Assembly: GCA_002786025.1 (NCBI GenBank)
Contig: NHNW01000022.1
Coordinates: forward strand, 62,001-126,000
Length of the DNA stretch: 64,000 nucleotides
Direction of reading: 5' to 3'
Origin: Zasmidium citrigriseum
Taxonomy: Eukaryota > Ascomycota > Dothideomycetes > Mycosphaerellales > Mycosphaerellaceae
The notes beneath the pieces are model-generated. The model did no database searches, was not told the DNA's origin, and saw nothing but the letters and a program-made list of their open reading frames with translations. Both the position numbers and the translations under genes were made by a program. Positions within the stretch are counted from its first letter, which is position 1; the number at the start of each line of letters is the position of its first letter. Positions 29,868 to 56,485 of the stretch are shown here, piece after piece.

Positions 29868-31987
29868 TCATGCCTCGCAAGCTGCTGGCGGTAAGAGCCT
29901 TGAGCGGCTCATGAATTCGACCAAAGACGACCGTGGTTTTCTCCCTCTTATGACAGCTTGTCGTAGCGTTATGTCTTCGAAAACATCGTCAACGCTGGCT
30001 AAATGTCCCTTCTCGGCCGCTTCCAGGACCAATTCGCCACTCATTGCGCCTTCGAATTGTCAGCTGCGTTCTTCTTGGATTTGATGGAGAAAGCACTCTT
30101 ACCGTCTAGATATGCACTGCCTTTCAACTCATAGCAGCATTCGGTGTTCGCTTCTACCGGCTTCTTCACACATAGCAACAAGGGACTGGAAGCCACGACG
30201 CAGATCCAGTCACCAACATCAGCCTCACCGAATAACAGACCATGTCGCCCTTGCGCCGTTACAAAGAACGGATTGATATTCGCCAACGTATCCAACATTT
30301 GCCAGTGGGCAAACATCGGCGTCGAATCACCCTGCTGCGAGAAGCACATCATCGGATTCTCGAGGATCCTTCGCTACAGCTGAATATCGTCCGGCGTACA
30401 TCTGCGAACTTTTTCGTCCATGACCGAGTCTCCGCATGCTGTGCGGATCAAGTCTTCGATGCTGATTTCGGAGTAGGCAGGACCATGGCCATGCTCCTTC
30501 TTCATGGCTGACTGGTAGAACTTCTTTGGTTACAAAATCGTCTTCATTGTAATCCTCCGCATGGCATTATCTTCTGGCTCATACCTTTTAACAGCAATGA
30601 TTCTGTCAACGATCATTCCAGAAATCGCAAGAACTCTCGGCGATGGCTGCGAGATCTTGAACTCCGCCCCGGCTGAAGGCCAGTAATGCTCTCTCTCGGC
30701 ATTCAACAGAGGGGGCAAGCTCTTCTCATCGTATCCAGTACCAAAGACACCGTGATCATGCGCACTGCGCAACGATGTCCTCAGGTCCGGAACCCATGAT
30801 GGCAGTCCAGCAGCTCCTCGTCCGGCTAGGAGAAGCAAATTGAACGAACGCCGATGCAGCACATATCGAAAAGCGAAATCTACGAAGACATCTTCCGCCT
30901 TCCTATTATAATCCGGCTGGATCCCAATGTCTGCCGGCAGCAAACCCAGAATCCCGTAGACGAGGTCTCTTTGATCTGTGGCATTCGCACGAAAGAACTG
31001 GTTCAGCTGCGTCGCGGTCAGCTCGTTCTCAGGCTCTTGAGCTTTTATTAACGTCGCTGTGGCCAGAGTGATCGCGTTGGCCTCATCACACATCATCGGA
31101 AAGTCGTCGATAACAGCCTGGCTCAGCCCTTGAGACGCCAACATCCTAACACCGGGCTCCTGGATTCTCCGAGCATATACCAGCAACGGCGCTGTGAAGA
31201 ACAGAGGATCGTCAAATGGACCCACGGTATGCGGACCGCAATGCAGAGTCTTGGACCTGGCCAGCACAATCTCTTGCGTCACCCAGCGTCTGCTCCAGTA
31301 CCGGTTTCGAAATATGCCTCCCAAGGCTTTCCAAGCGGTGACAGATCTGAACTCCTTCGGCACATAGACATCGTCGCCTCCGGGATGAGGATTATCGAGG
31401 TAGTCATCCGATCTCATCAGGACGTACTCCAAATGCCTGAATCCAAGAGCTGTCTGTGGTGTCTCCAAGCCGAACCAGACTCGTACATTCGAAGCAGATG
31501 AGTAGATTTCTCGCATTAGGGCGACTTGCTGTCCTTTCTCGATGTCGTCGGCCTGGTTGATACAGATGGCATCTATCCATATCCGGAGCGGCTTTCCATT
31601 GGCATCGTCTCGGAACTGGCGTAAAGCTGCTTCTAAATTGGTGGAGACTTGTCTCTGGCGGCCGCATAGCTCAATTGCGTTGGTGATGCTCGCTGGGCCC
31701 CAGCAGTACGACAGAGCCTCGAATAAGGGATTTTCCAGCAGAGAGACTGTATCAAGTGTGACTTTCACGCCGGCTGTAGAAGTCGCGGTAGGCCAGATGG
31801 TTGCGAGCCGGATCTCTTTGCGCCCTTCGTCGAGGAGACGATAAATAGTGGAAGAGCGAAGGCCAGCATCTCCCTTGTCATTGTCCAGATTGAATCTTCG
31901 ATCAGCGCAGCCTGTGACTGAATTTTCATGTTGCAGGCCGAGATGGCCCAGCATTCTTTCCCCCTGGTGTATAAGTTTCAGTTTCAA
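29868..31987 (-). pseudogene. HET-domain (heterokaryon incompatibility) gene with two in-frame stops
   Basis: The main frame (31987-30530) encodes 485 residues with a clear HET domain at about residues 85-180. It includes FEALSYCWG, then PLRIWIDAICINQADDIEKG and MREIYSSASNVRVWFGLE. Later come RYWSRRWVTQEIVLAR and RDLVYGILGLLP, all typical of the family. The frame is then cut by a TAA (30532-30530), continues open for 50 codons, meets a TAG at 30378-30376 and continues to 30103. A GTAAGA donor there joins by a 53-nt intron to a last exon (30049-29868). The joined tail has GRHGLLFGEADVGDWICVV and AYLDGAMSGELV, which correspond to the conserved C-terminal region of HET proteins. Both stops could arise from CAA or CAG by C-to-T change. 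HET genes control self/non-self recognition on hyphal fusion. Confidence 0.7.
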
Positions 31988-37036: not shown

Positions 37037-37597
37037 AAGCTGTATAGCGCAAAGGAGTGCAAGCAGCGCACCACGAGCGTGAAAGACTCGCTCAGATTGC
37101 TATTGTAAAGGAGAATGAAAAGCATATTGTCAGGCCTTCGATCGGCATTCGCCTAGCGCCTTTCAAGCTCTCTTCGGCTCGTACAAACACCACCTTCACA
37201 CCCGAGCGCCGCGATTGTACTTTTGGATTTGCTGACAAGTAGCCTGGATTGCAGTTCGTTCGCTTCAGCACCTAGCCAATGGAGACGATGTTGCTAAATT
37301 TTCGAGATGTTGAGTGCGCGGTCCATTCACTTGCCGGTGACGTCTTCATGTGACGCCGCGCTAGCGGTGGCGGGGGGTGATGCGAACGCCGTCCGTGCGC
37401 CTTAAAAGCTCGCTCTTCGCCCAGCTGCTTCCCCCGCGCCTCAAACAACCGACAGCCGCAAACACCACCACCTTCGCCCGCCGCCCTTCCACGCCGAACA
37501 CGACCGACTTCCCCGACGATACCTCCTTAAACGACGCTCGCCTTCCTCGATGACGCCGTTCTCCATAACCTGCTACACTCCATCCCGCGACTGAAAG
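37037..37597. other. Spacer upstream of RNA module A
   Basis: No gene is seen. A CTTAAAAGCTCG promoter-like element lies at 37401-37412, about 270 nt upstream of the first conserved block of module A. The equivalent positions of modules C and D have TATAAAGC and CTTAAAGCTCG. Confidence 0.45.
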
Positions 37598-37920
37598 CAT
37601 GCGCACAGATGACAGTCGTGGCGAACAGCGGTACGCTTCTCCTCTGAGTGTGGAGTTGTTGTTGGACTTAAGCATTAGCTCGGCGGACCAGATCAGTCAT
37701 CGCGCGTCAAGGCGTGCAAGCGCCGAGTTACTGTGCGCTTGCACACATAGCCTGAGACGTCGTCTTGGCCCTGGAATCACCTTGCTGCAAAGCCTTGGAG
37801 GCCGTGCTCTGGCTCGTCTTGAACACGCACCACCTCGGCCGGTCCTGAAACTGGTCATGATGTGCCGCATCTCTAGGAGTCGGAAAAAACGCTCATGATC
37901 GGTGAACCCGGAGCACAGCA
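37598..37920 (+). ncRNA. Structured RNA module, copy A (3'-truncated)
   Basis: This is one of four diverged copies. Shared blocks in order are GTTGGACTTAAGCATTAG, CGGCGGACC, GGAATCACCTTG, GGCCGGTCCTGAAA, GTGCCGCA and GAACCCGGAG. Helix 1 pairs 37852-37860 with 37893-37901 (TGGTCATGA with TCATGATCG, all nine pairs allowing G-U). Helix 2 pairs GTGC 37804-37807 with GCAC 37827-37830, nested in GGCC/GGCC. It lacks the intron-like 3' block found in the others and ends near a 19-bp direct repeat. No consistent reading frame is kept between copies. The G-U pairs favour plus-strand transcription. I recognise no known RNA family. Confidence 0.55.
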
Positions 37921-37959
37921 ACTACACGGAAGAGACTCGAGGCCGAGAGGAACACTTCT

Positions 37960-38002
37960 CACCCATCCGATCTTCATCGCGGGCACCCATCCGATCTTCA
38001 TC
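37960..38002 (+). repeat. Two 19-bp direct repeats at the module A/B junction
   Basis: The word CACCCATCCGATCTTCATC occurs at 37960-37978 and again at 37984-38002. It sits between the truncated end of module A and the start of module B, and could mark the breakpoint of the duplication that placed the two copies in tandem. Confidence 0.7.
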
Positions 38003-38012
38003 TGGATCTCAT

Positions 38013-38550
38013 CAAGCGCTACACACCTCCACACCACGGCCGAAAACATACGCACAGATGCCGGCCGTGGTGGCCCGTGGTACGACAATCATCTGTGGGT
38101 CCAGTTGTCGTTGGACTTAAGCATTAGGCAAGGCGGACCAGCGGGCATCGCGCGGAGAGGCGTACACTGTGAGAACTCTTTCCACGCGAAAAGATGGTAA
38201 CGGCCTGTGTACGGATGCCTGAGACGTCGTCTTGTCCGCTGGAATCACCTTGTCGCAGCTCCAAGGATGCCCTGATACTTGCTTCTCGGCGATATCAGGT
38301 ACCACCTCGGCGCGGTCCTGAAATCGATCATACCGTGCCGCACACTTCAATGGGTGGGAGAACACGTATGATCGGTGAACCCGGAGCAGCGCAAGTTCGA
38401 GCAGGAGATTGAGTAAGTTGCTTCTCTATGCATCTATCCTGCCGTTTTCTCCCCGTCTTCGGTGTGGGGCCGCCGTTATGTGCCCCCCGATGCTGACAGT
38501 TTGTAGGCCATCAGAATTCTGGCTTTTATCGCTGGGGTCTGGAGGCCAGT
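38013..38550 (+). ncRNA. Structured RNA module, copy B
   Basis: The conserved block GTCGTTGGACTTAAGCATTAG is followed by the same order of blocks as copy A. Helix 1 is CGATCATAC (38325-38333) with GTATGATCG (38366-38374), a perfect nine pairs. Helix 2 is CCTGAT (38271-38276) with ATCAGG (38294-38299). Both differ in sequence from the other copies yet still pair. After GAACCCGGAG an intron-like segment runs from a GTAAGT donor at 38413 to TTGTAG at 38506. It holds a GGGGC/GCCCC hairpin (38466-38470 with 38482-38486) and a GCTGAC branch site. The exon-like sequence resumes with GCCATCAG and ends near CTGGAGGCC. No ORF of note is maintained. Confidence 0.6.
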
Positions 38551-38982
38551 TGCATTTCGTACAGTCGTTTGACCTACTTTGACGGAGCGTGCCAACAGTG
38601 CTCAAAGGCTGTTGGGCTTTCAAGGAGAAATCAGATATAAGATCTCTGGAACGCTGCAGTGCTATGCTTGGGAGGACGTTCTGTCGAAGGAGTTGCAAGA
38701 CATTATACCATGGTCTCAAAAAGAAGCGACTGGAAAATTAAAAAGCGGATTAAAGGATGGGAAAGGGAAATTCGTGAATGGTTCTTTCATACTCTAGTCC
38801 ATACAGCAATCTACGAAGCCTTTTTCGGCAGTATCGACCCCCGCCTATACAGCCTGAAAACGCCAATGATCTATTACGCAACGCCTCACTGCCATTTCAC
38901 AGACTCTCCATCAGTCAATGCGCAGAAAAAGAAGGAGCACTGGTCTCTGCCGGTCATTAGCCATACCGCAGATACTGGCAAC

Positions 38983-39955
38983 TCACCAGCCGTTGCGGCT
39001 CTGCATGGCGGCCCAGCGAGTAGCCTGCACAACCTGCTTGAGCTTCTTGTGAACCATGATGCGGTGTTCCATCGCCTGAGCCGCGCCAGCTCCACGGATC
39101 TCCTTCTGCTTCTTCAGAAACTCATCAAGCTCGCCGTCAAAGCGCTGAACGAGTCTAGCCATTCCGTCCTTGATGACATCCTTCGCAGCGTGGCTCATCT
39201 TGGCGATGTCAGTGCACACCCAGTGGAACTTCTCAGCCAGCTTGATGGTGGTAGCGTGGCTGTCGACGGTCTCGGGGTTGTTCTTCCTCGCTTCACGAGT
39301 CTCGAGAATGGTGAGGAAGCCAGTGAGATCAGCTTCCTCGAGCTCGAGACTGTAGGAGAACTTCGAGTCTTTGAAGGCGGAGTTCTCCTTGTTGCAGAGC
39401 TTTTTGAGGTCATTGATGCGAGCCAGCGCTGCTTTGAGCATGGCCTTGTCGTCGAGATGTGGGATTGCACTGTAGTAGCAGTCGTCAGGAGAGGCGGCCT
39501 TGAGGATATTCCGTGCGCCATTCTGTTGGAACCTGAGCCAAGCGGTGGACTCTCCCTGTGCAGCTTGTGGTCGCTTCCGGGGGCGAGACTCAGACTCAGA
39601 CTCAGACTCGACGGTCTTGGTGTTTTCGAGGCGCGCGCGCCTGTGATTTCTCTCGCGCTTGTTGGACTTTGGCTTGGAAGCGCCAGTCTCAAGGGCATTC
39701 GAGGGGCCTTCGGTTGATGGCTTCGCCTTGTCGCGCTTGTCCTCATTCTGGTCGCTGGAGTTCACTGCAAGAGTATTAAGAGTAGAGCGTTAAATCAGGA
39801 CTGGTGTTGATTGACTCACCAGTGGCTCTTGAGATGGCAGCGCCAGCCATCGTTCTCTTGGCGAGCTCAGCTCTCTTGTTGCGCTCCTCAGCATCCTGGT
39901 TGAGGAACATCTGGCCGGGCAACATGTCCTCGGGGGATGTGGCTGATGGTGCCAT
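38983..39955 (-). CDS. Lysine-rich protein of unknown function, paralogue 1
   Basis: Two exons (39955-39820 and 39764-38983; 55-nt intron, GTGAGT donor) encode 305 aa. Residues 1-45 contain MLPGQMFLNQDAEERNKR; residues 45-115 are Lys/Arg/Ser-rich and disordered (SESESESRPRKRPQAA), including a likely nuclear signal. A helical domain follows, with LKAALARINDLKKLCNKEN, EEADLTGFLTILETREARK, and KDVIKDGMARLVQRFDGELDE. It resembles the gene at 41662-42718 in architecture and in the last helices, so the two are paralogues. Its promoter faces RNA module C on the opposite strand (TATA-like box of the module 162 nt from this start). I do not recognise the domain. Confidence 0.8.
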
Positions 39956-40231
39956 ATCTGCGAAATGTGTGCGATGGACCGAACTTGCAAGGTGGGCGTC
40001 CGCAGGGCTATTTGAGTGTCGGCAAGCGTCGTGCGGCGGGTAGGCGGGCGGCGGGCGGCTCAAGCCCGTGCAAACAGAGGGCGAGTGAATCGGCGCTGGT
40101 GGACCGTGCACCAGTGTATAAAGCTGCGTCTTTCCCCGCCGCTCCCTCTTCCTCTCCATCATCTTTTCCAAATTTTCAATCCACCAGATGGCCTCGACAC
40201 CTTGCCAAAATCAAGCCACACCTCGAGCGCT
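39956..40231. promoter_or_regulatory. Divergent promoter, lysine-rich gene and RNA module C
   Basis: The TATAAA at 40117-40122 on the plus strand lies in a GTGTATAAAGCTGCGTCTTT context followed by a C/T-rich tract, like a pol II core promoter. The minus gene starts at 39955. The same arrangement recurs at 42718-42914 for the second pair. Confidence 0.5.
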
Positions 40232-41015
40232 AGGCTCCACACCACGACAAAAGAAATGCGTACAGGTGTCAGTCGCGGTGGCCAGCGGTACGACTTCTCC
40301 TCTGTGCGTCGAGTCGTCGTTGGACTTAAGCAAGAGACTCGGCGGACCAGGCCAGCTATCGCATGTAAGGGCGTGTATCGAGTCCTAAGCGTTGGTCTCA
40401 TACACACATAGCCTGAGAAGTCGCCATAGCGCTGGAATCACCGGGTCGCAGCACCAAGGATGCCCTGGAACTCACCTCTGCGTCAGCTACTGGCCGAGTC
40501 CAGGCACCACCTCGGGGCGGTCCTGAAAGTGGCCATGCGTGCCGCACACTTAAATGGGTGGGAGTAACATGCATGGCCGTTGAACCCGGAGAAGCGCAAA
40601 GAGGATTCACAAAGACTGGCGAGTATCTTTCTACTGCTCTTCCTCTGCCCTAACACCCATCAATCTTCACCCCTCCGCTGGCATCCTCATTTTCGTCATC
40701 CCCGCTCTGCCTTTGTATCCTCGAGTCTTCCCTCTCCAGACCATTTTACTACCACCGGTGTGAGGGCCGCCGTTATGCGCCCCCAAGGCTGACATTCTGT
40801 AGGCCATCAGGATGTAGCACAAGTGCTGGGTTCTGGAGGCTTGCAAAGGCGATCGCATAAGTCTTTGTTTGAAGAGAAGCAAGATTTCAGAATGTAGCAG
40901 GTGTGCACTGCCCACCGCAAGAAGCAAATGTCGATGAGTGTTAGAGCTGTGAAAGAGGAGGTGAGGTGAGTGACTCGCGTCGGGGACCCACTTAATTTAA
41001 GCCTTGGCACCAATG
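40232..41015 (+). ncRNA. Structured RNA module, copy C
   Basis: The first conserved block (GTCGTTGGACTTAAGCA) is at about 40317. Helix 1 is TGGCCATGC (40530-40538) with GCATGGCCG (40571-40579), nine pairs with one U-G. Helix 2 is CCTGG (40464-40468) with CCAGG (40500-40504). The intron-like part runs from GTATCT at 40623 to TGTAG at 40802, 180 nt, longer than in B and D. It has the hairpin GGGC/GCCC (40764-40767 with 40779-40782) and the GGCTGACATTCTGTAG end. A tail shared with copy D (GAGGTGAGGTGAG, GACCCACTT, CTTGGCACCAAT) extends to about 41015. Distinct short ORFs occur in different frames in each copy, so a coding role is unlikely. Confidence 0.6.
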
Positions 41016-41661
41016 GGATACTTCAAGCGCCAGAGCGAACACCGTTTCTCCTGCCCGTGTTCGTGTTTGTACAAAAGTGCTTGTACCACGTTCCACGCTC
41101 CCAAGACCCTTTCGAGGGGCGTGCTTCTCTTCAAAACGCCCAGTACGCATCCCGCCACCTCACGTGCAGCTACTCACTCATTTATTAGTAGAAGCTTGGA
41201 TCGATGAGTCGCTGTGCATCTTGACGATTCTGTACATAAGAGAAGGCGATACTCTTAAAAATTGTAAAGGTAAACGCTTATATCAAGTTCCATTGCAAGT
41301 TTTGAGACCCTCTGCTATTCATTCAAACTCGCAAGTTGAGTGTGTGTACTTCTCACTGTCAACATGACCGATCCGGTCATGCGAGGAGTTCTAAAAGCGG
41401 GAACAAGTTTCTAGATTACTTCATTCATATTTCGCAAGAAGACAGATTAAGCTCAAGAAGACGAGAAGAGTCTGGTTTTCAAACTTTTGATGGATTCGCT
41501 CTACATGCTATTGTCGTACAAGCCAACATCTAATATGGGCCAATGACAATGTGTAGCCCCAAACGCCGTAATGCGCCAATGATATCTGCAATGCAGTCAT
41601 TTCCGTGCAGGCTCGACAATAGAAACAAACAGTACGCATCGTGTTGAAGTGAATTCGCCAC
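41016..41661. other. Spacer, no gene seen
   Basis: The stretch lies between module C and the 3' end of the second lysine-rich gene. It is AT-richer than its surroundings, with short ORFs only. Confidence 0.5.
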
Positions 41662-42718
41662 TCAGGAAAAAGACTCGCCCGGCACGTACCTGCCCTTGCG
41701 ACCCTGGGCCACGGCTTTGCATCCAGCCTCGATGAGGCCCTTCAGCCAGATGTACGCATCGACTTCGGCTTCAGCCTTCTCCTGCTCTTCTTGCGTCTCA
41801 GCATTCTGAGGATCTAGGAGCTGAAGCTTCTTGTCGAAGCCGTCGATCATCTTGGCCATTTCTGCTTCGACGATGCGATGACGGTCGTAGGGTCCGAGCG
41901 TCATGAGTGCCTTGGCTGGTTCGCGGAAATGCGTGAGGGGCTTGTAGAGGGAGACACCAGCGCCGACACGGCCTGGCTGACGCATTCGAGCCTCGCGACC
42001 GATGAGACCGTCCAGGAACCATTTCAGCTCCTCGCTCTCTGCGTCAAGAGTCTTGATGTAGTTCGAGTTGTTGAACTCGTTCTTGGTATTGAGTACATTG
42101 TAGACTTGTTGAATTGTACTCTGTTCGTTCTGTACGGCGGTCTTGGTGTAATCGGAGAGACTGGAGTTGTAGTAGCCGTTCGGCTTCGCCTTGACTATGT
42201 GCTGGCGCGCTCCAGCGGCCTTGTGGCTGAGCGACGGACGCTTGAGCGGTCTCGTCTCGGACTCGTTGGTGTTCGCAGGATCTTCTTCAGTCTCCAAGGG
42301 GTCGGAGGACTTCTTGGAAGGTGCCTGAGTCTTCTTCGACGGTGCTTGAGCCTTCTTAGACGATGCTTGAGCCTTCTTCTTGGGTTGGCCGAATGGAGTG
42401 GTGGCCGAGTCTTGATTGTCGGCCTGGGTCTCAGTAGTCTCGAGGTTGCTGGTCGCGGACGGAGTGGCATTGCTCTGTGCCTTGCGCTTGAGAGGCCGTG
42501 AAATTTCCGACGGCTTGGTCGAGGTATGGGCAGTTGGGAAGGCGGGTTGGGGTTTTTGCGAGGCCATGTTGCGGTCGAGGCCGATGATTTTGCCTAGGAA
42601 TGGTGTAAGTGAAAGGCTAAAGGCATCATAATTTAGTATACTTACGGCCCTTCTTGGGTTCGGTCTGCTTGGGAGTATTCGAGGCCATCGTACGGTCCTG
42701 TTCGGCTGAGCTCCGCAT
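41662..42718 (-). CDS. Lysine-rich protein of unknown function, paralogue 2
   Basis: Two exons (42718-42646 and 42593-41662; 52-nt intron, GTAAGT donor) encode 334 aa; a second in-frame Met at 42688 would give 324 aa. Residues 50-130 contain a run of near-repeats of KAQASSKKAQAPSKKTQAP type, and RPLKRPSLSHKAAGA as a probable nuclear signal. The C-terminal helical domain includes KWFLDGLIGREARMRQPGR, HRIVEAEMAKMIDGFDKKLQ and EVDAYIWLKGLIEAGCK. The order of disordered Lys-rich region, KRP motif and helical domain is the same as in paralogue 1 (38983-39955). RNA module D starts divergently upstream. Function unknown; nuclear location is inferred. Confidence 0.8.
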
Positions 42719-43099
42719 GACTGCAAGCGGAGTGACTAGGAGAGGAGGGCCCGGCGTATTTAAGGGCGGGACCGGAGAGGACGGCGGGTGAACCCGACGC
42801 AGTGTGGGACTTGACTTCCAGATTTGGAAGCTGCGCTGGTTAATTTCTGTGCTGGTTAATATTCGACTGGTGAGTGACCAGCCAAGCCCCGCAGCCGCAC
42901 AGTCGCACGTCTACTTAAAGCTCGCCGCGCACCGCCATTTCTTTCTGATTCTTGCCTCGTCGCACCCATCTTTTTCCATCCACTCCAGACCTGCATGGTC
43001 CTGCAACACAACAGCTCATCCACACCTCGGTCGTCTGATGATGCACCTCCGTCGACGCCACTCCTCCGCCAGCAGCAACCCAAGCATCTTTGCAGGTGC
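42719..43099. promoter_or_regulatory. Divergent promoter, paralogue 2 and RNA module D
   Basis: CTTAAAGCTCGCC lies at 42914 on the plus strand, 196 nt from the minus start, then a pyrimidine-rich leader with TTTCTTTCTGATTCTTGCC. This repeats the layout of module C and matches the CTTAAAAGCTCG of module A. Confidence 0.45.
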
Positions 43100-43738
43100 T
43101 GGTTCCCTCCGCCGCTGTGGTACGCGCTCTGCTGCAATGGGAGTGTCGTTGGACTCAAGCACTAGACTCGGCAGACCATGAAGTCACGGTGTAGGTGTGT
43201 AGGTTGTACCTACACGCGAGCCTTGCCGCCCACCTAATGGAATCACCTTGTCGCGACGCCTCGAAGGCCGTGCTTGACACGCACCATCTTGGCCGGTCCT
43301 GAAGTCGGCGTGGGTGCCCGAGGAGGGATAACGTCCATGTCCGTACGAACCGGGAGGAGTGGCCGACGCCAGCGCACATCTATGCGTTGATCCTGATAAG
43401 TATCCCTCACCTGCCTACACCATCACGTTCTCCATCACCACCGGTGTGAGGGCCGCCGTCATGCGCCCTCCAGGCTGACATTCTGTAGGCCATCAGAATC
43501 CGGCAACTTCTGCTGGGTGCTGGAGGCCTCCAACCCCGACTCGAGTCTTTGTTCAAACAGGCGCAAACATTCCGCTCAAAGAAGCGCACGACAAAGAGAA
43601 GTCCCTAGCATCTTCGAGGATGCCTCAGAGTGTGCGGCGTCTCCCAATGTTGTGATGGGGCAGGATGTCAGAGTTGTGAAAGACGAGGTGAGGTGAGGTC
43701 TCGCGGACGAGACCCACTTTCGAAGTCTTGGCACCAAT
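43100..43738 (+). ncRNA. Structured RNA module, copy D
   Basis: The opening block is GTCGTTGGACTCAAGCACTAG. Helix 1 is TCGGCGTGG (43305-43313) with CCATGTCCG (43335-43343), eight of nine pairs. Helix 2 is GTGC (43270-43273) with GCAC (43281-43284), enclosed by GGCC/GGCC. The intron-like segment starts at GTATCC 43400 and ends at TGTAG 43488. Its hairpin is GAGGGC/GCCCTC (43448-43453 with 43465-43470), extended by an A-U pair that is G-C in copy B. The text ACCACCGGTGTGAGGGCC is nearly identical to copy C. A tail shared with C ends in CTTGGCACCAAT at about 43738. Confidence 0.6.
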
Positions 43739-47000: not shown

Positions 47001-50000
47001 CCGTCATTGGCAACAACTCCTCGGCGTATTCCTTGGCCTCTTTGAAGTGTCCAAAGTAATACATGGTCATCAGCTTGTGGCAGCGATATATGCTCAGCGG
47101 CCGCTCGGGGGCGGACGCCGTGGTTTTGATGAACTCCTCATAAGCATCACTCGAATGTGAGTTGTCGGTGAGAACGTCCCTGGCAGACTTGACATACGTC
47201 TTTCCAGCGAACGCGCGGGTCATCTGCCTCACGCCCATCAAGAAAACACCACCTCGGAGGTTCTGCTGCCAATCTGGAAATTCGTCGCCTGTAGCTTCGA
47301 TGAAAGCTTGGATCTCGCCCATGTTCTCAGATGCCCAGAGCCGGTATGAAGCCATGATGCCCAGGTTCAGCAAATGCAAGATTTTGTCTCCCGCGCTTGA
47401 TGCTGCCTCAAGTCCACGAGACAGTGAGTAGAAAATTTGGTTCATATCGCGGTGAAGGTGGCCGAGGAAGATACTGTAGAGTGTCAGGGTGCGACCAGTG
47501 GTATAGTACTCCTGTTCGTAGGCATCGATCACAGCAAGAGCATGCTCTGCGAGCTCAACACCTGCTTGGACCATGCTGAAGCGCCACACACAGATTGCTG
47601 CGAGATTAACGAAGCCGAGACCTGCCTGTGGAAACACGCCTCGTTCAAGATAGACCTTGGTGATGAGAAGGGTGGCCTGGTAGTAAAGCAGATGGTCCGT
47701 CCAGTAAGCGCTGCTTTGCGTCTCGGTCAGCAAGGCCCCCAATGTGGCCATCGTCTTGTCAGGAGTTCTATTGCGAGCCTGTTCGAAGTCGGGTGGGTTG
47801 AGTTGTAGAAGCGGGTACACACGTTGGAACTCTTCGTCGCATTCTTCCCAGGTAGTGTCAGGCATGATGATTCCCATGTCAGACAGAGCTGATTTGAGGA
47901 CGCTGAAGGCAGCGCTGCTGTCACCTCTCTGGGCGTGCATCCTTGAGAGAATGATCGAAGCTGGTGTCTAGCTCAAAGTTAGCATCCCGTACGATAATTG
48001 TCAATGCTCGGGTCTTGCGGCCTAAGCCTAGGGCATGAATCTCGTGCGAATGATTGAGGATTTCGACCCCTAACATACCTTGTCCGTGCAATCCACTGCC
48101 CGCTCAAAGACTTCGTCCAACAGCTCAGAGGCCTTGTCGTACTGTCCGTCGTACCAATAGGCCTCTGCTGTTCTGGTCTTGAGCGTCAGAGTCTCCGAGT
48201 AGCTTGCATCAGGTCCGTCCGTCCAAGGATCTTCTGGAAGGAGGTCCAAACAAGTCTGAAAGTAGAAGAGTCCGGACTTGTTCGCACCGCTCTCTCGCGC
48301 AAGCTCTGCAGCTTGGTACAGCAACTCGCGAAATGGGGTTTTGCGAGTCGCGCGTTTCTTGACGACTTCCAAGCCCTCGCAAACGTGTCTCGCCTGCTCA
48401 AACAGAACAGAGTTGCGCTGATTGATCGGATCGTACGGCTCATGTTTCATCATCGAGCAAGAAACCACGTAGTGCATTTCCGCCGGCTCGTACGGGTTGT
48501 CTGTGATCAAAGACTCAGCTGCTTGGACGTATCGGTCGTGGCTGAATTTGAAGCGATCTTCGTCATCTGTGGACATGATAATGAAGCTGTTGAGGGCAAT
48601 TTGGAGCCCTGCAACCGCATCCTGTGAGATCGGAGGGATGAGTGGCTGTGGGGAAAGCTTCGAGCAGGCGCAGCTCATTACTCTCTTGATGGTGGAGAAT
48701 CTGAAGGAGTTTCCGATCACCGCGCCCCAGGCGAGCACCGTCTGAGCATCTTGAGGTAGTTCTCTGATTCGCTTGAGGATGAAGTCTGTCGTTGAGAGGG
48801 GACTCTTCGAACTGAATTCTTCGAACAGCTTGTCCAAGGAGAACTCCCATTTGCAACTAACATATAACGTTAGCAACTGTCCTCGCGAAGATGTAGTGGC
48901 ATGTGACTTACCAACGCCAGCAGTAGTATATGCACTTCTTCCTGTACGCCGTCTCCAGCATTTCCTTAACGTGAAACGGAACGCCCTGTGTCGTCTGCTG
49001 GACAACAGCAACAAGAGGGGTGCAATAATCAGCGTCAGAGACACGGTGTAGAGTCTCCGCGACGAACTGTGCTGTCTCGTCGTCGCTGAAAGGCCCAACC
49101 TCAACCTTGGTGGCATGCTCGAGGAGTCGCCTCATCGCCGGTGTGAGCATGTGTTCCTCCCTGTATGTCAGAATCATGACGATGGGTATGCGGGACTTAG
49201 AAATGGCTGCGATCAACTCCAAGCTCTCCGGATCTGCAAATTGGAGGTCATCAAGGCATATCGATATCATCTTTTGCACGGCTAGCAGCCGCAGGACGTC
49301 AAGGAAGATGTGCATGAACCGGGATGACTTAGAACCCCCTCCAGCTCGTAGCCACTCTTGTGTTGAGGCTGCTGAGCATTTCTTTCGCTCGTTTGGGGTT
49401 GGATTGAGCATCGGGCCAGCGTTTGCGGAGCTCAGCTTGCCATTCGTTGTAGGCGAGAGCAGCCAGGGCGGCAAATCCAGAAATCCGTGGAGAAGCGGCC
49501 AGAATGGTCTGACAAAACTACGAATGTTGTCGTGGAATGGAGTGTTGACGTCGTTTTCTGCAATGCATGTTAGCTTCAATGCTTGGAAATCTCAATGAGC
49601 AATGTCCGCCTACCCGAGAAGATCTGTCGGAAAAGCGAGGACATGATCCGAACCACTGGATCGAAAGGTGAGGTCCGGACAGCGTCCCATTTTGCAGACG
49701 TGAAGTACCCATGCTTGCGAGCGGATGCTTGGATACTCTGAACAAGGCTGCTCTTACCACAGCCTGCCGGGCCTGAGATGCTGATGAGTTCTGTCTTTCC
49801 TCTCTTCTTCAACCTGTGGGCCGTCCTCAGCAAATTACTGGGCTCGCTGCTATTGGTCTGGAAGCTCGATGTAGTTCTGTATAGGCTGTCCTGAGTGGTG
49901 TTGTTGTGAGATGAGCCGCGACTGTCGACCGAGGGGTTTGTTTCCAGAGGTCTGGTCTCCAAGTCCCCATTGATCGAAGTCATCGACGACGCGACGCTGC

Positions 50001-51519
50001 CCGCTCGGCCTTGTCGTTCCTGTGATGGCGTTTTCCTTCTTGATAGCTGCAATGGAGGTGCTAGCTCGGGGATAGAATTTAGGCGGCCTTCGTCGCGGCC
50101 GCGCTCCCGATCCGTTGACGACGTGCTGTCGCTGAGAACGTCCTCGATACCTCCAAGCGTGTCTCGTTCACCACCGGATATGACGCTGGAGCCGCTGCTT
50201 ATGCTGTACAAAGCTTTGCGTCCAAGGACTGGACCATTCCTGGCTGCGCGTTCGGCTGCGAACTCTATGACATCGATGACCTGCTTTCGCTGCTCTTTGC
50301 GGCCTACTAGCTGCGTAGGAAGTGTGAAGAAACAGCTGAGGTCGGTCTTCGCTATCTCGAAGTTTGCGAGTGCTGTTTGATCTCCGTTGGTCAAGATTGA
50401 CCTCAACTCGATCAGATCATGCTTCACGCCGCCGACACTGTTATAACGATCGTCCATCGACCTGTTCGTCATCCTCGCGATGACCTTGGCAAGTGGTTCG
50501 GGACAATCGGAGCGCCAGGAAGAGACCGATGGTATCCGTCGAGACAACACATTTTGCATGATTTCGAGAGGCGAATGTCCTTCAAAAGGCCGCTGCCCTG
50601 TCAACATTGTGTAAAACAAGATTCCCAACGAATAGATGTCCGTTCGTGCATCAGGCTCCGCGGGAAGGCGTCCTGTCTGCTCTGGCGCAATGAACTGTAA
50701 TCTGTTCTCTACACCACGCTCGGACATAACAGCAGACCAATTTGCGCTTGTAAGGCCATGTTCGAAACTCCTTATTCCGCTTCCGAAATTCACCATCCGC
50801 ACCGTATTCTGTTCTCTGTTGTAGTGGAAGGCATCTCCGCGAATCTCGCCATGTATCGACTGATGTTCGTGGTGGATGAACTCGAGACACTCCGCAGCCC
50901 CGATCGCGAAGTTCAGGAACTCCAACAGAGCGATGCATTGCTCGCTTCGTGGAGCCTGAGGACTATCCGAACTGCCCATGTAAAAGTTGCTTCCAAAGTC
51001 GACCAGCTCCCTCAGATAGTTGCGTCCTGGAGCTTCGACCACGACCAGGGCTGCCGGTACATCGCCAGGTTGACGAGCCGGCAGACGGAAGAAGTCGAGG
51101 GGCCTCACGAAATGTGCCTTGTCGCCAGATTTCTGAAACAACGATTGGCACATCTTATATTCCCTCTCGAGTCGCAGTATCTGTCTGGACATTCGCCCCA
51201 CAACCCAAACATCCCTCTCCTTCTCTTCATCGTTCGAGACATCGTAGTCGGATCGTGTTCGGATACTCGAAGGTCGGGAGCCAGAAGCAGAGGAGGCACT
51301 GGTCTTACGTCCGTTGACGCCTGCTTTCACCTTCCGTCGGCCAAAGAAGTGCCAGTCATCGTAGGAACTGTGGAAGGGTGGGATCTTGTCAAGGAACTCG
51401 TAACCCGGCACGTCCTCTTTGAGGCGCTCGAACATGCGCTTGAAGGGCGCAGCTGCATTCTCATCTTGCAGCGATAGGGGCGAGGGCACGAACGGGGCGG
51501 CAGTGAATTCGGTGGACAT
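44048..51519 (-). CDS. Hybrid histidine kinase with N-terminal pseudokinase and AAA-type module (class X)
   Basis: Five exons (51519-49614, 49557-48912, 48856-48079, 47967-44812, 44761-44048; introns 56, 55, 111 and 50 nt) encode 2399 aa. Residues about 30-390 are a protein-kinase-like domain. It has IHGEIRGDAF instead of an HRD loop and NFGSG instead of DFG, with an intact APEQTG. Residues 575-800 are a P-loop ATPase (ISGPAGCGKSSLVQS; ICLDDLQFADPESLEL), then a helical TPR-like region to about 1600. GAF is at 1670-1820, and HisKA with FLANVSHELRTPLNG is near 1885. The ATPase domain has MNLLSNAYKFT, DTGIGIS and GGTGLGLSI. The receiver has the phospho-acceptor in LVLMDVQMPVLDGY near 2210. This layout is the fungal Mak1/2/3-like, two-component stress sensor class. 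Confidence 0.93.
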
Positions 51520-55336: not shown

Positions 55337-56485
55337 ATGGAGGCACCAATTCTATCTCCAGAATCCGTCGAGGACAAACTAAGCCAGGCCGTGAAATTCA
55401 TACCAGCGGACAAGATAGACGAGACGTTCAAGTCAGACAGCATAGGTAGGCTCAGTCACGCGACTGAACATTCAGGTGAAACAAAATCTGTACTGACTCT
55501 CAAAGACCTCATCAACAAACCTCTCGGCTCTCGAATCCTCTCCTTCTCCGACGAATGGTTCGCTGCCGCTGAGAACCTCACAACACCCACTCCTCCGATT
55601 CGCAAACCTGGAGTCTTCACGTACGCAGGAGCATGGTACGATGGCTGGGAAACACGGCGTCACAATCCAGAGCCCTTCGACTGGGTAGTGATCCGTTTGG
55701 GCGTTTCGTCAGGAAAGGTCAAGGGGTTCGAGATCGACACAGCATTCTTCAATGGCAACCAGGCCCCTGAAGTTGCTGTTCAGGGATGCTTTGTGAGCGA
55801 TGACCGGGAAGAGGAGGTCAAGAAGAAGGAATTTGGAGAGTGGGAGACTATACTGCCAAAGCAAGAGTGCGGACCAAGTCAGAGACATGGCTGGCTGCTG
55901 CCGAAGATGACGGACAAGGCATACACACACGTGCGGCTGCAGATGTTCCCGGACGGAGGCATTGCAAGATTCAGGCTCTTTGGTGAAGCCCTGCCCGTCC
56001 TGCCACAGGACGTAAACGAAGTGTTCGACCTGGCAGCTACGGTGAACGGCGGCGTGGCTGTCAAATGCTCGGACCAGCACTTCGGTACCAAAGACAACCT
56101 TCTCCTACCCGGCCGCGGCGTAGATATGGGCGATGGCTGGGAAACCAAACGCTCACGAGGAGTCCACATCGACTGGGTGATCATCAAGCTCGGCACACCA
56201 GGTATCATCGACAAGCTTGTCGTCGACACTGCGCATTTCCGAGGCAACTTCCCACAGAAAGTGCAAATCTTTGCTGCTGGGAAGGCGGACAAGGCACCTG
56301 AGCATGAGGATCATGAGGCGTGGGTGGAGGTGCTGAGTCCGCAGAAGACGGGCCCGGATCAGGAGCATGAGTATGCTGGGGACGTGCTTAAGGATGTGCA
56401 GGGAAAGACGTATGGGTTTGTGAAGTTGGTCATCATTCCTGATGGTGGTGTGAAGAGAGTGAGGGTGTTTGGGAGGAGAGCATAG
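55337..56485 (+). CDS. alc: Allantoicase
   Basis: The gene encodes allantoate amidinohydrolase, which splits allantoate to ureidoglycolate and urea in purine catabolism. It has two tandem copies of the allantoicase fold: SFSDEWFAAAENL, then AGAWYDGWETRRHN, IDTAFFNGNQAPE and ECGPSQRHGW in the first; GRGVDMGDGWETKRSRG, VVDTAHFRGNFP and DGGVKRVRVFG in the second. The frame is continuous for 382 aa. However, 55446-55505 looks like a 60-nt intron (GTAGGC donor, CTGACTCTCAAAG end). Removing it joins DSI to DLINKPLGSRIL, which matches the family spacing, so the mature protein is probably 362 aa (exons 55337-55445 and 55506-56485). Confidence 0.93.
   Translation: MEAPILSPESVEDKLSQAVKFIPADKIDETFKSDSIGRLSHATEHSGETKSVLTLKDLINKPLGSRILSFSDEWFAAAENLTTPTPPIRKPGVFTYAGAWYDGWETRRHNPEPFDWVVIRLGVSSGKVKGFEIDTAFFNGNQAPEVAVQGCFVSDDREEEVKKKEFGEWETILPKQECGPSQRHGWLLPKMTDKAYTHVRLQMFPDGGIARFRLFGEALPVLPQDVNEVFDLAATVNGGVAVKCSDQHFGTKDNLLLPGRGVDMGDGWETKRSRGVHIDWVIIKLGTPGIIDKLVVDTAHFRGNFPQKVQIFAAGKADKAPEHEDHEAWVEVLSPQKTGPDQEHEYAGDVLKDVQGKTYGFVKLVIIPDGGVKRVRVFGRRA

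Follow-up and report, generated by a model that had tools for sequence, protein, structure and literature searches.

A 64,000-nucleotide (nt) stretch of the genome of the fungus Zasmidium citrigriseum (positions 62001-126000 of contig C64, GenBank NHNW01000022.1; hereafter the window) carries four related plus-strand stretches, modules A (37585..37918), B (38034..38391), C (40242..40596), and D (43069..43361), whose shared sequence blocks lie in constant order. We favor, with moderate confidence, the reading that they belong to a family of modular, structured noncoding plus-strand RNA genes, which end in the same 3′ hairpin and may serve as scaffolds of ribonucleoproteins (RNPs). An earlier note on this sequence had described A to D as a four-copy structured RNA family of the plus strand, with compensatory base changes and no match to a known RNA class. 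Our tests supported this interpretation, and the coordinates, block order, helix 1, and helix 2 given there are real. The count of four was too low, because the same 3′ element is found at 12 places in the genome. The family is larger than first described, and its genome-wide extent, the 3′ domain, the intron signals, a further helix (helix 3), and the interleaved ORFan paralogs had been missed. All genome-wide searches covered one assembly (44.4 Mb, 148 contigs), and all copies of the family are paralogs within this one genome.

The 3′ hairpin shared by the family

Modules B, C, and D continue into a conserved 3′ segment, with identity up to 94% over 63 nt between C and D. Module A has no such domain of its own and continues directly into B. 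The 3′ domains (B 38455..38550, C 40750..40845, D 43436..43533, all plus strand) contain, in order, a hairpin on the side of the putative intron, the branch-site-like GCTGAC, TAG, and then GCCAUCAG..CUGGAGGC. This last part is the putative exon hairpin, laid out as GGCCAUCAG-stem-CUGGAGGC and extending from GGCCATCAG to CTGGAGGC at 38506..38546 in B (where the first G is part of the AG), 40802..40840 in C, and 43488..43527 in D. Further downstream, C and D have a tail in common (40939..41014 and 43666..43738, plus strand).

When the whole genome was searched with the pattern GGCCATCAGN{14,40}CTGGAGGC, 12 places were found, and none with the reversed control. One each lies on contigs C4, C59, and C117, three on C64 (the window), two on C96 (C96a and C96b), and four on C114 (C114a to C114d), and the copies are clustered, with the same strand used within each cluster. 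The elements are 37-44 nt long, with lengths differing by 1 and 2 nt, and their constant arms enclose a stem of 5-6 base pairs (bp) with three unpaired bases per side (in B, one of the sides has four). The letters of this inner stem diverge strongly, for example CUUGUC/GACAAG, CUCGC/GCGAG, and CUGGCG/CGCUGG. Still, 68 of its 70 cells are paired, a value reached by none of 20,000 shuffles, and double changes occur at five of the six pairs. Under a single fixed rule for all 12 copies, 56 of 60 cells were paired, compared with 19-35 when the strands were slid. A covariance model made from the three window domains scored the nine outside places, which had already been chosen by the hairpin pattern, at E values of 3e-20 to 7e-6. 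Adding copies raised the support for covariation.

Fold and strand of the type I modules

Type I modules comprise A to D and three modules on C4. Helices of the four window copies were tested by fixing anchors and then shifting one strand by 1-3 nt as control. Helix 1 (nine pairs; A 37841..37908, B 38314..38381, C 40519..40586, D 43295..43351) had 35 of 36 cells paired, against 8/36 to 16/33 when slid. Its closing-helix score was 10-14 in all four copies, whereas 66 distinct unrelated inserts, DNAs from outside this genome that match the flanking words of helix 1, scored no higher than 7. The compensatory changes reported for this helix were found at 4 of 12 extended pairs, counted with one bulged base omitted in each of A and B. 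For helix 3 (A 37714..37744, 10 bp; hairpins at B 38162..38212, C 40373..40405, D 43197..43215), the six pairs common to all copies were formed in all 24 cells, compared with 2-15 of 24 in the slid controls; the sixth of these pairs reads A-U, C-G, U-A, and G-C across the four copies. Helix 1 stands on a kink-turn-like base. A kink-turn consists of a canonical (C) stem, a 3-nt bulge, tandem G.A pairs, and a non-canonical (NC) stem, and by eye, against this consensus, GGU-CCU-GA / GA-ACC was present in all four window copies.

The seven type I helices together were compared with 20,000 shuffles. Paired cells numbered 178 of 189 (shuffle mean 156.8, maximum 173) and pairs altered on both sides 19 (mean 9.1, maximum 18); these figures are only a guide, because the shuffles ignore the relatedness of the paralogs and so overstate significance, and because the helices were selected by eye in the same sequences that were later scored. 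Taken singly, Ha (P = 0.004), H3 (P = 0.002), H1 (P = 0.001), and H2 (P = 0.045) stood out from the shuffles; in D, the Ha strands were selected within the module and share the final bases of Hb.

Pair types bear on the strand. G-U exceeded A-C by 14 to 4 over the seven helices (helix 1 alone, 10 to 0) and by 14 to 0 in the stem of the 3′ hairpin, indicating that the plus strand is favored, as the earlier note had read from G-U pairs. That the modules lack a common reading frame was also borne out, with at least one stop in every plus frame of each of A to D and a longest open stretch of 103 codons (in A). Decay of a protein-coding sequence was rejected because of these stops and the hairpin lengths differing by 1 and 2 nt.

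Tandem modules elsewhere in the genome

Tandem modules before the same ending were found at C4, C96a, C114b, C114c, and C114d and, by eye, at C114a, and they are of three types. The three type I-like modules in tandem at C4 carry GGTACG and CGTTGGAC blocks; in a covariance-model search one matched with an E value of 7e-6 and another with 0.03. They form H4 with other letters (ACGGC/GCCGU), and one of them, judged by eye, also forms H5 with other letters (CCAGUUUGA/UCAAACUGG). A second module type occurs in tandem at C96a, C114b, and C114c, and is the type seen at C114a; a third occurs in tandem at C114d. Repeat spacing of modules of these two types is 313-661 nt in most pairs. In ten modules of the second type, folding z-scores of the variable segment ranged from -6.2 to +1.1, with 7 of the 10 at or below -2.2. 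C59 was scanned with two covariance models only. The C96b hairpin is preceded by a roughly 31-nt unit repeated three times in tandem (L170:5660-5753), which does not resemble the other modules.

In DNA searches, one module each from C4 and C96a matched copies in their own clusters only, module B matched A and C, and module D matched itself only. Since module searches are largely confined to their own clusters, the modules appear to diverge fast while the ending stays.

Splice-like signals before the hairpin

An AG stands directly before the exon hairpin at all 12 places, and at 11 of them it is preceded, at a distance of 12-15 nt, by a branch-like CTRAY. A donor-like GT was found 65-94 nt upstream at 10 places (8 if the weak GTATCC of C and D is left out), a generous count, because the donor pattern held strings previously seen upstream. 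From these signals, a short terminal intron probably lies behind the modules. The putative introns are 38413..38506 in B (GTAAGT..GCTGAC..TAG), 43400..43488 in D (weak donor GTATCC), and either 40715..40802 (GTATCC) or 40623..40802 (GTATCT) in C, both with weak donors. For C and D, the 45 nt from GTGTGA to TAG had been considered as the whole intron; this reading was dropped, as donors farther upstream fit 10 of the 12 places. Probable transcripts of the window are A plus B, C, and D, each with a 3′ domain. Each would contain one or more large folded modules, probably have its short terminal intron removed, and end in an exon with the near-invariant hairpin.

The same signals allow another reading of the 3′ domain, as a spliceosomal 3′-end-forming device like that of fungal telomerase RNA. 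In this case, the spliceosome would cleave the 5′ splice site but be kept from the second step by the hairpin starting at the AG, so that the modules upstream would be set free as mature RNA. The intron signals just behind the modules, with a branch-like site nearly everywhere, and an exon stem that begins right at the 3′ splice site would suit such a device. PMC4299874 provides the precedent, spliceosomal 3′-end formation of fission yeast and Aspergillus telomerase RNA, and ATAAGT at the putative D donor (window 43396-43401) agrees with the Aspergillus non-canonical donor AUA(A/C)GU. However, the GT donors look ordinary at 8 of the 12 places, and the exon hairpin, with the tail in C and D, is conserved past the AG, which would be needless in a discarded piece. 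We regard a 3′-end-forming device as unlikely.

The C59 copy of the hairpin (L157:1501-1539; C59:280436) directly follows ..SHWAGWGHSQARKR and possibly represents a coding or 3′ untranslated region (UTR) use, or a retroposed copy. If retroposed, this copy without intron signals would agree with the view that the family is the remains of a mobile element resembling a short interspersed nuclear element (SINE), whose structured body would be joined to a 3′ end shared by several copies. The SINE reading was rejected as very unlikely: there are only 12 copies, clustered and on one strand per cluster, their stems are intact despite deep divergence, most retain the intron signals, and none matches Rfam.

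Promoter-like sites and neighboring protein genes

Putative promoter elements on the plus strand, with weaker support than the intron signals, precede three of the modules: the TATA-like CTTAAAAGCTCG before A (37401..37412), TATAAA before C (40117..40122), and the TATA-like CTTAAAGCTCG before D (42914..42924). Those of A and D were identified by eye and contain no strict TATAWA, which among the window genes is found before C only. The earlier note had placed such sites about 200-270 nt upstream, a range that does not fit: measured from the module starts given in that note, the distances are about 197, 115, and 186 nt in A, C, and D.

The RNA genes alternate with two minus-strand ORFan genes. 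Gene 1 (38983..39955; 305 amino acids; predicted intron 39765-39819) is divergent from C and convergent to B, and gene 2 (41662..42688; predicted intron 42594-42645) is divergent from D and convergent to C. They are paralogs, with 26% identity over 156 amino acids. No homolog of gene 1 was found in the protein database at E ≤ 1e-3 among 2014 scored candidates. Searched against the same database, the allantoicase gene of the window (55337-56485) had fungal allantoicases at 63-85% identity among the 120 best matches listed, near the top of which were those of Oleoguttula (80%), Friedmanniomyces (76%), and Elasticomyces (72%), which we take to be Dothideomycetes. Therefore, the missing homologs of gene 1 are not due to a mere lack of fungi. 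An AlphaFold model of the exon 2 frame of gene 1 was poor (mean predicted local distance difference test score 55.8, from 2 sequences). Both ORFan genes are direct candidates as partners of the RNAs.

The RNA genes on C96 likewise lie amid paralogous genes, four in number (L169:5739-7223, plus; L169:7972-9501, minus; L170:4123-4926, minus; L170:6214-8130, minus), whose products are mostly coiled-coil by eye. Their cysteine-rich C-terminal stretch has a C-x5-C-x4-C-x3-H-like spacing, which we presume to be RNA-binding. Pfam gave no confident CCCH match for these proteins, and a database search with the cysteine-rich domain of one of them gave no match among 3 candidates only.

This arrangement could also point to a cis effect of the RNAs on the genes between them, for example through transcription from divergent promoters shared by gene 1 and C and by gene 2 and D. 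It would account for the orientation of the two paralogs toward B, C, and D and for the similar setting on C96. However, A has no divergent partner of the gene 1/2 family, of which only two genes were found, and a promoter effect needs no selection on a detailed RNA fold. Cis action thus seems improbable.

The RNA cluster is flanked by a HET-domain gene (30530-31987, minus) and a gene for a protein kinase with a P-loop ATPase (49576-51519, minus). Genes of these kinds are tied to self/non-self responses in fungi.

Evaluation of the proposed RNA gene family

Conserved fold, strand bias, shared ending, and tandem modules together support a family of modular RNA genes. Several results weigh against it, besides the by-eye choice of helices, the relatedness ignored by the shuffles, and the generous donor count. 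The loop-loop helix Hb is weak (27 of 32 cells, P = 0.13), and A to D alone give no support beyond chance for H5 (P = 0.25) and H6 (P = 0.74), indicating that these three helices are not established from the four copies alone. The six automatic MAFFT alignments did not stand out from column shuffles, which equaled their best covarying helix in 166/300, 38/300, 244/300, 166/300, 298/300, and 5/60 cases; we attribute this to insertions and deletions that push the helices out of register. Folding energies of the single sequences were mixed (z = -0.25 for A, -2.10 for B, -3.42 for C, and +1.98 for D), and the kink-turn is not clearly retained in the C4 modules. At C96b and C117, modules of the described size were not found, nor were words of the second module type, save one TACCCA. 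The C59 hairpin lies inside an open frame without branch site or donor, no donor was present in the 260 nt scanned at C114d, and strict TATAWA occurs in only 2 of the 12 gene regions scanned.

By eye, loops, junctions, and the 3′ hairpin are conserved while stems drift. This is the pattern of an RNA recognized by proteins at fixed points, and for this reason an RNP scaffold is the role that we favor, although taken by itself this role is possible rather than probable. Under the scaffold reading, the 3′ hairpin would be the handle by which one shared protein, acting in processing, stability, or localization, holds all these RNAs, and the modules, often in several copies, would offer surfaces for protein binding.

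Outside the classical classes, few large RNAs of eukaryotic nuclear genomes are known to have a structure with clear covariation. We tentatively suggest that the family may represent eukaryotic RNA genes of a new class, kilobase-scale, built of exchangeable tandem folded modules before a near-invariant spliced 3′ hairpin, and expanding alongside lineage-specific protein families that are possibly its partners. Together they would form a rapidly evolving system of RNA and protein that has no known relative. The joining of different modules to one 3′ hairpin is a natural experiment that separates the role of the ending from that of the modules. Furthermore, paralogs within one genome can expose fast-evolving RNA families that cross-species alignment scans may miss.

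Comparison with known RNA classes

The earlier note had assigned the modules to no known RNA class, and covariance-model searches agreed with this. With Rfam 15 (4227 families, curated threshold), there were no matches in the window and in the nine related loci, and a known Rfam class was rejected accordingly; below the threshold, the best E values were 0.62 in the region (hits up to E 5) and 0.38 in six loci. Fungal RNase P, MRP, and U3-type RNAs evolve fast and can escape Rfam models. The same is described for fast-evolving fungal telomerase RNA in PMC6115765, which would leave room for a divergent member of one of these classes. Even so, we judge this extremely unlikely, given the missing threshold matches and the multi-gene, multi-module layout. 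No 8-mer of the telomere repeat, assumed to be CCCTAA, is present in the three window genes, and telomerase RNA was rejected because no template was found and the copies are multiple. The RNA gene on C4 has in its tail an isolated telomere-repeat-like 8-mer, CTAACCCT (L155:3894-3901, minus), the sole one in the 12 regions scanned. Pattern scans of IMG/VR and GTDB gave no matches or matches judged to be chance; two, in near-identical contigs of the phage collection, were discarded as the rest of the motif was absent.

We found no description of a comparable family in listings of the open-access literature; most subscription papers lay outside this scope. In the passages compared, as text and without consensus drawings, the fungal structured RNA candidates already reported (15 in PMC5640933 and 17 in PMC8216456) lie in intergenic regions, introns, and UTRs, and no long tandem-module RNA is among them. 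The words 'tandem' and 'paralog' do not occur in the available text of PMC8216456, nor do 'tandem' and 'multiple copies' in that of PMC5640933. For one candidate, an AU-rich hairpin, 8 of 12 examples come from one species, according to the same passages (PMC5640933/PMC8216456).

The family resembles several known RNAs in part. GOLLD, ROOL, and OLE are not known to combine tandem modules with one common, spliced 3′ hairpin. These RNAs, as presented in PMC12286853, are likewise long, elaborately folded, and noncoding, but are bacterial or phage RNAs, unlike the fungal family. Fungal telomerase RNA (PMC4299874) is similar in that a structured RNA is followed by an intron near the 3′ end, as is probable here; in contrast, the present family has many genes, no telomere-repeat 8-mer in its window members, and an exon hairpin conserved past the intron. 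Drosophila roX RNAs, although animal RNAs and likened here by description only, offer a further parallel, as PMC4719309 describes them as noncoding RNAs recognized via focal, repeated structural elements under fast turnover.

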